A stretch of DNA of 25,791 bases, from positions 1 to 25,791 of IMG/VR virus record IMGVR_UViG_3300027291_000024. The stretch is one strand, 5' to 3'. The translations under genes were made by a program, and so were the position numbers. The notes below the pieces were generated by a model that worked only from the letters and a program-made list of their open reading frames with translations, made no database searches and had not been told where the DNA came from. Positions 3,723 to 4,688 of this stretch are shown piece after piece. Source of the stretch: a virus. Position 1 is the stretch's first letter. Every line of letters begins with the position of its first letter.

Positions 3723-4688
3723 CTATACCCAGTTACCAACAGAAATATCCGCTGCAGCGTATGGTCCAATTGGATAGAATTGCATATATGATCCACCAAG
3801 TGTAATGTAGGTACCACCAGGAGCTGCAGAGAGCTGATATTGTGGAATAAATGTTCCTCCTGCGTTAATTGCCACAGTTCCCTTAATTAGAATATTCATG
3901 TAGATTGTATTTGTAATACCTGTAAATAAAGCTTGCGCTCCTGCTGTTGTTACAGTAAAGTCAGCTATATTACCAACTGCAGCAGGAGTTGTGTTGCTAT
4001 TTGTTGGACTAGAAGTGGTTTTTACATTATACATAATATTATGTACCGATGCAGTTCCACCAAATAAAAGTGAGAAGCTATGAGAACTGGTACCAGCAGT
4101 TCTTGCTATACCATATACCATCTCAAAAGCATAAACCGTATTACTTGATACCGTCAATCCCTTACTTGACTTGATCTCTCTAGACGCAACAGTCTGAGAT
4201 ATACTTACAGTATATGTACCAGATCCACCAGTACCTGTTCCTAATGCTGTAATAATTGTATTTGCTGTGATACCAGTACCATACACCTGCTGACCAACAG
4301 CAAAGCCGTTAGCAACAGTACCACCAACTGTTAGCGTTGTACCGGCAATATTAGATGTTGTTCCTGATCCACCAGTAATAAACCCAATACCCATTGCTGC
4401 AACGTTAGCGCCAGAGCTATTAGCATTGAGTCTATAATATTCCATTGTAGGTAGAACTCCACGCTCGTTCAATAGCGGAGTTCCATAAAAAGCTGTGCCA
4501 TCATACTCTAACGCACCATTAGCTACGGTTGAAAAAGAAGTACAAGCAAGTATAGCTTTTTGAGATGATGATAGTGTGAGTGCTGTGGTACCTGCCCCAC
4601 CACCTGTTTTCAATTCCAATATACCAGAACCATCTCCAACCATACCAAAATTATTTGTATCATTACCTGCTGTAATTACTGTTGACAT
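3723..4688 (-). CDS. Short fibre/tip protein with an inserted ~70-residue module
   Basis: This 321-residue protein shares with the 255-residue neighbour the blocks [74 protein letters not shown] and a C-terminal [10 protein letters not shown]. Between residues about 105 and 175 it carries an extra Gly/Thr-rich segment, [18 protein letters not shown] followed by [20 protein letters not shown], which the neighbour lacks. This segment resembles a repeat module I know from various phage and bacterial surface proteins. The N-terminal 45 residues contain [17 protein letters not shown], a common fibre motif. The start has AAGGGCG 6-12 bases upstream and lies 16 bases after the previous stop. A fibre-tip or receptor-contact role is inferred from family and position. 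Confidence 0.75.
   Translation of the reverse strand: [321 protein letters not shown]
4164..4376 (-). repeat. Inserted Gly/Thr-rich module within the 321-aa protein
   Basis: This segment (codons about 105-175) is absent from the paralogue encoded at 2947-3714, while both flanks align to it closely. The 12-base word GATCCACCAGTA occurs at the upstream edge (4366-4377) and again inside the segment (4222-4233), coding for TGGSG on both occasions. The length is a multiple of three and the reading frame is kept. Boundaries come from visual alignment and may be off by a few codons. Confidence 0.6.

Follow-up and report, generated by a model that had tools for sequence, protein, structure and literature searches.

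The analysed window, that is, the whole stretch of 25,791 nucleotides, contains two adjacent minus-strand genes, hereafter genes A and B, whose products are homologous and differ by an internal segment of about 72 extra residues in A relative to B (Table 1). blastp aligns the two proteins at 120 bits, with 89/272 identities and 73 gap positions that fall nearly all inside the insert, and their global alignment score of 380 compares with a mean of 23.5 and a maximum of 68 for 500 shuffles of B. A first-pass annotation of this DNA had described the genes as paralogues aligned over their full length. The homology of the adjacent genes is borne out by these scores, but the alignment is not full-length, since the blastp match begins at residue 50 of A and residue 55 of B and the N-terminal ~50 residues align poorly. 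By eye, the N-terminus of A is closer to that of a 255-aa homologue in another locus, L009. A and B are fairly diverged homologues. Gene A has no Pfam match at E ≤ 1, and its PHROG matches below E 1e-3 span the module region. Elsewhere in the window, a 696-aa protein (407-2497, minus strand) contains three Laminin_G_3 (concanavalin-like lectin) stretches and is possibly a receptor-binding protein.

Table 1 Features of the gene A/gene B locus, followed by the virion protein classes in which the module is found (classes assigned by PHROGs and Pfam)
Feature	Position	Strand	Basis or remarks
Gene A, putative tail-associated protein with inserted module	3723..4688	-	321 aa, open frame
Gene B, homologue without module; empty site adjoins residue 111	2947..3714	-	255 aa, open frame
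Host portion of gene A before the insert (N-terminal), residues 1-103	4380..4688	-	Host-domain alignment
Insert of gene A, residues ~104-175 (borders placed to within about ± 4 residues)	4164..4379	-	Missing from B and 8 further aligned homologues
Mobile module core, residues 111-169	4182..4358	-	Full match to 59-column module HMM, 75 bits
Host portion of gene A after the insert (C-terminal), residues 176-321; homologue of B	3726..4163	-	Alignments
12-base word, first copy (TACTGGTGGATC on coding strand), running from the final base of codon 104 through the second of codon 108, left border of insert	4366..4377	-	
12-base word, second copy, away from the borders, inside the module's conserved GTGTGGxGTYTV motif	4222..4233	-	
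Head closure Hc3			phrog_578
Head-tail adaptor			phrog_12985 strong; phrog_637 Ad3 weak (2e-4); PAE2 orthologue annotated P22 tail accessory factor
SU10 adaptor			PF24175
Tail sheath			phrog_205, DUF3383
Neck terminator			PF23961
Baseplate wedge			phrog_6, Baseplate_J
Minor head/cement protein (XM1 gp53 minor capsid/cement)			phrog_2122, PF23982, PF22758
Major tail protein			phrog_807
Protease-capsid fusion (Phage_capsid_4)	L110:1057-3558		PF25209 match 466-702; module 646-704, largely within capsid match
Virion structural proteins, two families			phrog_3287, phrog_3645
Tail fibre			phrog_12796

The borders given for the insert in the first-pass annotation (4164-4376) are correct to within one codon of those found here (~4164-4379). 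Inside it lies the module core, which corresponds to a profile of 59 columns with the central motif GTGTGGxGTYTVSxSQT. The gene A copy, with which the profile was seeded, is a full-length match (HMM columns 1-59, E 2e-24 among 10 window proteins). The other nine window proteins scanned with the HMM score below 1 bit per domain. The GC content of the module is 0.424 and that of its flanks 0.397.

Taken on its own, the A/B pair is compatible with deletion, in which a module already present in their common ancestor was later lost from B. However, the module is absent from the site in all nine aligned host-domain homologues that cover it (0/9: B, L009, L011, L012 (MW202711), L013 (MW202496), L002, L003, L005 and L006), a sample of few relatives from single-protein searches alone, in which L003 and L011 are partial. 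The first-pass annotation had named a remnant of the module in orthologues of the 255-residue protein as the sign of deletion; B itself has none, its best module-HMM domain reaching -0.3 bits. The module profile also had no match among the frames of nine loci (L002-L007 and L011-L013). As loss would require exact and repeated deletions, an ancestral module deleted from B is very unlikely, and we rejected it. Since none of the nine homologues has the module, gene A most likely gained it; insertion into A is the simplest account, and the module-bearing gene is most likely the derived state. These observations uphold the earlier reading of an in-frame domain insertion next to an uninserted relative. 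In a search for close relatives only, gene A with its module was found in the window and in a sister contig, L001, with one residue different. L009 and L010 present a similar arrangement, in which the 255-aa homologue is empty and a 296-aa gene directly upstream has the module.

How the module reached gene A was addressed in the first-pass annotation by a 12-base word, which was taken as a possible trace of insertion through short repeats. The word (GATCCACCAGTA) is indeed exactly repeated in the window, at 4222 inside the inserted segment and at 4366 on its left border, and nowhere else. With up to two mismatches it occurs at 10 places compared with 2.15 expected from dinucleotide shuffles, and this over-representation, together with the exact copy at the left border, is what favours entry of the module by recombination between short direct repeats. 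All 10 occurrences, however, lie on the coding strand of the genes concerned. The first exact copy, on the left border, codes for most of ITGGS; the second, located where the module is best conserved, codes for most of GTGGS; and the right border (REIKSSKG) has no copy. With the codon usage of the window, 5.4% of draws give the two word-encoding peptides at least 12 bases in common, some exact 12-base repeat arises in 525/2000 synonymous-codon shuffles of gene A, and three neighbouring genes contain 9, 11 and 36 exact 12-base repeats. Codon use for TGGSG, offered at the outset as an alternative explanation of the repeat, therefore goes a long way towards accounting for it. The gene with 36 repeats encodes a repetitive, fibre-like protein of 1699 aa (9040-14139, minus strand), the C-terminus of which resembles by eye a chaperone-of-endosialidase domain.

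The same conclusion emerges from the borders of other modules. The two border regions of the window insert share a longest common word of 7 bases. Across 150 module instances, which are distinct but partly related, border matches average 6.31 bases as against 6.27 at control positions (random places of the same spacing, 20 per instance), and matches of at least 10 bases occur in 1/150 instances and in 1.8% of controls. Conservation of the 12-base repeat at the borders of other modules, which the first-pass annotation had proposed as a check, was not seen: among the loci fetched up to that test, with L008 and L014-L016 omitted, the exact 12-mer occurs in gene A and its L001 copy only. The 150 instances with position controls and the codon shuffles led us to reject the short-repeat mechanism, which is highly unlikely; the 12-base repeat is not an insertion scar, and codon use can explain it.

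The module is not peculiar to gene A. Its profile detects 124 frames in 88/97 sources; most of the 97 were retrieved by means of the module, and gene A is present in six. The loci from bacterial genomes, likewise fetched with the module, hold 31 module frames in 22/22 loci, and this number of loci, obtained from one short peptide pattern, is a lower bound. Their record titles name mostly proteobacteria, and also Terriglobus, Verrucomicrobia, Chloroflexi, Solirubrobacterales and Patescibacteria. Named-phage loci gave two module frames, in 2/6 scanned. At E ≤ 10, Pfam has no family that matches the window module; the module consensus matches FeoA alone in Pfam, at 0.18, and no NCBIfam model at E ≤ 10. 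The consensus does match phrog_21413 at 2.7e-19 and phrog_38233 at 3.7e-15, two families to which many carriers are matched through the module. Literature searches gave no description of the module, which is weak evidence since sequences are not findable as text. It is a widespread and apparently unnamed variant among the known kinds of mobile domain.

Since the module has a biased, glycine/threonine-rich composition, its similarities might be an artefact of low-complexity sequence, and tblastn searches of annotated phage and plasmid records with single modules, low-complexity filtering being on, found nothing. This blank probably comes from the filter, because MW202674 and MW202520 in the same collection do hold modules. 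The protein of one further carrier, L043, had no match among phage records. Against an artefact, the HMM matches cover all 59 columns with invariant T, G, Y, S and Q positions, the nine other window proteins remain below 1 bit as stated above, and a fairly confident structure model was obtained from the module alignment. The invariant positions and the full 59-column matches argue against mere composition, and we regard such an artefact as extremely unlikely.

Other repeated stretches occur in the structural proteins of the window. A GTGTSF-type module (GTGTSFxTELxVGDFI...VSSITNxTxLTLSS) is present in at least four copies in 2164-aa and 740-aa structural proteins (18691-18900, 14524-14754, 24713-24934 and 23750-23959, minus strand), and a profile comparison with the gene A module gave a probability of 0.4%, which does not support a relationship between the two. 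By eye, a VTYxxGTGNTxIGGLANNTxYYIxTANxxxIQL repeat is found at 12181-12468 and 12841-13131 (minus strand) in the 1699-aa protein, and a similar VTYxxGTGNTxIGG-type stretch also in a 754-aa protein (20850-23114).

The proteins that carry the module belong to many virion protein classes, from capsid and connector proteins to the tail sheath, baseplate and fibre (Table 1). All seven bacterial-genome carriers scanned, from six loci, match such virion families. In Hc3, the sheath, the baseplate wedge and phrog_3287, one host match spans the module, which is therefore an internal insert in these proteins. In the carrier from L121, the module lies close to where the host match ends on its C-terminal side, and by this placement not every copy appears clearly internal. 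When the module was masked, the proteins of 150 module frames fell into 30 host groups, an approximate figure, since groups 1 and 2 merge some unrelated long proteins. Redundant gene A copies (L001, L008 and L014-L016) were omitted from this clustering, the border test, the DNA-identity comparison between groups, the tree and the label counts, and weak module matches were dropped below 25, 45 or 50 bits, depending on the analysis.

By alignment, empty orthologous sites are found in four host families, namely Hc3, the adaptor, the tail sheath and the gene A/B family. Hc3 has two to four modules at one place in six chosen carriers; it has none in the three outside orthologues fetched of 57 matching phage records, namely those of MW202674, MW202520 and Pseudomonas phage PAE2. 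The adaptor has one module in three contigs and in MW202674 and MW202520, and none in PAE2. MW202674 (L097) and MW202520 (L098) accordingly combine an adaptor with a module and an adjacent Hc3 without one. Where the module would be, the adaptor of Xanthomonas phage PBR31 (L100:3986-4939) contains LGGDISGAGIPAGATVTAI; the profile score of this divergent segment, 1.3 bits, is not significant, and the segment looks like a remote relative that possibly points to a wider superfamily.

The sheath protein of L103, which matches 140 phage records, aligns to two solved sheath chains, 9b42_S and 8fvg_A, as far as its residue 189 and again from residue 275 (chain residues 183 and 201), and both chains have only a short segment where the L103 sheath has the module. 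The chains are those of Pseudomonas phages Pa193 and E217. The portion of the E217 structure paper considered here does not place sheath residues 183-201 (PMC10329688).

The divergence of the modules bears on the age of the insertion. Between host groups, the best module DNA identity found by blastn is 74.3% over at least 120 bases, in a comparison that skips within-group pairs and in which the loose group 2 holds the window copy together with L009 and L017. The window module itself, compared with 197 other modules, reaches at best 68.2% DNA identity over 170 bases. Neither these identities nor the GC contents given above bear a sign of recent arrival, and a recent transfer was rejected. The description of a "clean" insertion that was "caught" beside its uninserted relative is accordingly overstated; since A and B are fairly diverged, this is not a freshly caught insertion. 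A tree of 80 modules is weakly resolved, with 57/77 inner branches open. In it, a quick search gave 96% SH-aLRT support to a set of six that unites the window module with those of L017, L072, L089 and L101. The 30 host labels change 50 times on the tree, compared with 58-65 times in 200 shuffles, so that modules are inherited along with their host genes but also move between hosts.

An AlphaFold2 model of the window module, built from 41 sequences, is all beta with a mean pLDDT of 85.5 and a pTM of 0.73. The model of the whole gene A protein is of low confidence (mean pLDDT 46.2), and the loop position is not readable from it. A Foldseek search of the PDB with the module model returned seven matches up to E 10, none of them under 0.001, of which the best, with a probability of 0.99 and E 0.18, was chain 1 of 8eci, a 124-aa protein of Arthrobacter phage Bridgette. 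VIA-align, run on the top 27 Foldseek chains, superposed this chain with Z 5.5 and an rmsd of 2.5 over 62 aligned residues with 31% identity, followed by phi92 gp150 (Z 5.3) and by LKA1 gp49 and F1-ATPase chains (4.8). Such middling Z values for a predicted model may reflect just a common arrangement. The sequence of 8eci chain 1 has no match to the module profile at E ≤ 10, and a sequence search of solved structures gave nothing credible with the module and nothing with the L121 protein. Among predicted viral proteins, 6/127 matches (50 of them listed) have E ≤ 0.001; the six include a P22 Gp10-like protein, the major capsid protein of HK97 type and an Indivirus collagen-repeat protein. The predicted module fold occurs with 46-49% identity in collagen-repeat proteins of the giant virus Indivirus (BFVD A0A1V0SCQ2 and A0A1V0SDM6_2).

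We consider that the gene A insert is probably one copy of a promiscuous beta module of ~60 residues found within many tailed-phage virion proteins, that it was gained after the A/B split without the help of repeats and that it likely serves surface adhesion or display. The A lineage would have acquired it after separation from B by an in-frame recombination not mediated by repeats, either illegitimate or relaxed-homologous. Once inserted, the module probably folds on its own. Since the host protein is recognisable on both flanks of the module, the module is suggested to project from a loop at the particle surface, where its most likely role is in adhesion or display, of a weak, general and accessory kind. 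On the other hand, it may be a mobile structural spacer, a stabiliser or a nearly neutral passenger that is tolerated in virion loops and binds nothing. No catalytic or ligand motif was recognised in the module, its most strongly conserved residues are mostly Gly and Thr, and it occurs in connector proteins and not in fibres alone, all of which fit a non-binding role. The retention of the module and its two to four copies in Hc3 suggest some benefit, although they are not decisive. A spacer or passenger is a serious possibility, somewhat short of an even chance, and nearly as likely as adhesion or display.

These results touch on the question of why unrelated parts of phage particles share small beta domains. 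The module has no Pfam or NCBIfam match, yet it is found in at least 10 virion protein classes. Since several classes have empty orthologous sites, each site is a natural comparison of a protein with and without the module. L009, MW202674 and MW202520 have the module in one virion gene and not in its neighbour, and its effect on adsorption or stability is directly testable there.

Several known systems resemble the module in part. In phage protein domain mosaicism, fragments are common to otherwise unrelated proteins, most strongly in tail proteins (PMC10684548). The module is not named in the portion of that work considered here, and it occurs also in head, connector and sheath proteins. The profiles of phrog_38233 (tail fiber protein) and phrog_21413 (unknown function) both contain the module, but each describes whole proteins (896 and 595 positions, respectively), of which the module is one segment, and neither defines it. 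Bridgette 8eci chain 1 is the best solved-structure match, yet E 0.18 and a Z below 6 are not decisive. The small beta domains of phi92 gp150, LKA1 gp49 and F1-ATPase have a similar arrangement (Z 4.2-5.3 over 56-65 residues), but with 3-18% identity they are within the range of chance arrangements.

The closest parallel in behaviour is with the phage Ig-like accessory domains, reportedly described by Fraser et al. in 2006. These are small beta domains in or on many virion proteins that move between unrelated structural genes, and a weak, general accessory adhesion role has been proposed for them. The module is alike in being a small beta domain within many different virion proteins and unlike in that no Pfam Ig family matches the module alone. 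A Big_6 match overlapping the module in the L096 carrier scores 11.6 bits (E 0.36), short of the 27.6 cut-off, and the He_PIG domain of the L053 carrier, at 260-350, is away from its modules. The Foldseek list has one antibody chain, with a probability of 0.01, and the 19 VIA-align entries listed include no Ig chain, although a missing match is not conclusive. There is close to an even chance, in our estimate, that the module is a single, ancient and widely portable non-Ig unit of the virion surface in tailed phages, which slots in frame into capsid, connector, sheath, baseplate and fibre proteins and is perhaps shared with giant viruses. If so, it would be a non-Ig counterpart of the Ig-like domains, able to decorate the whole particle.
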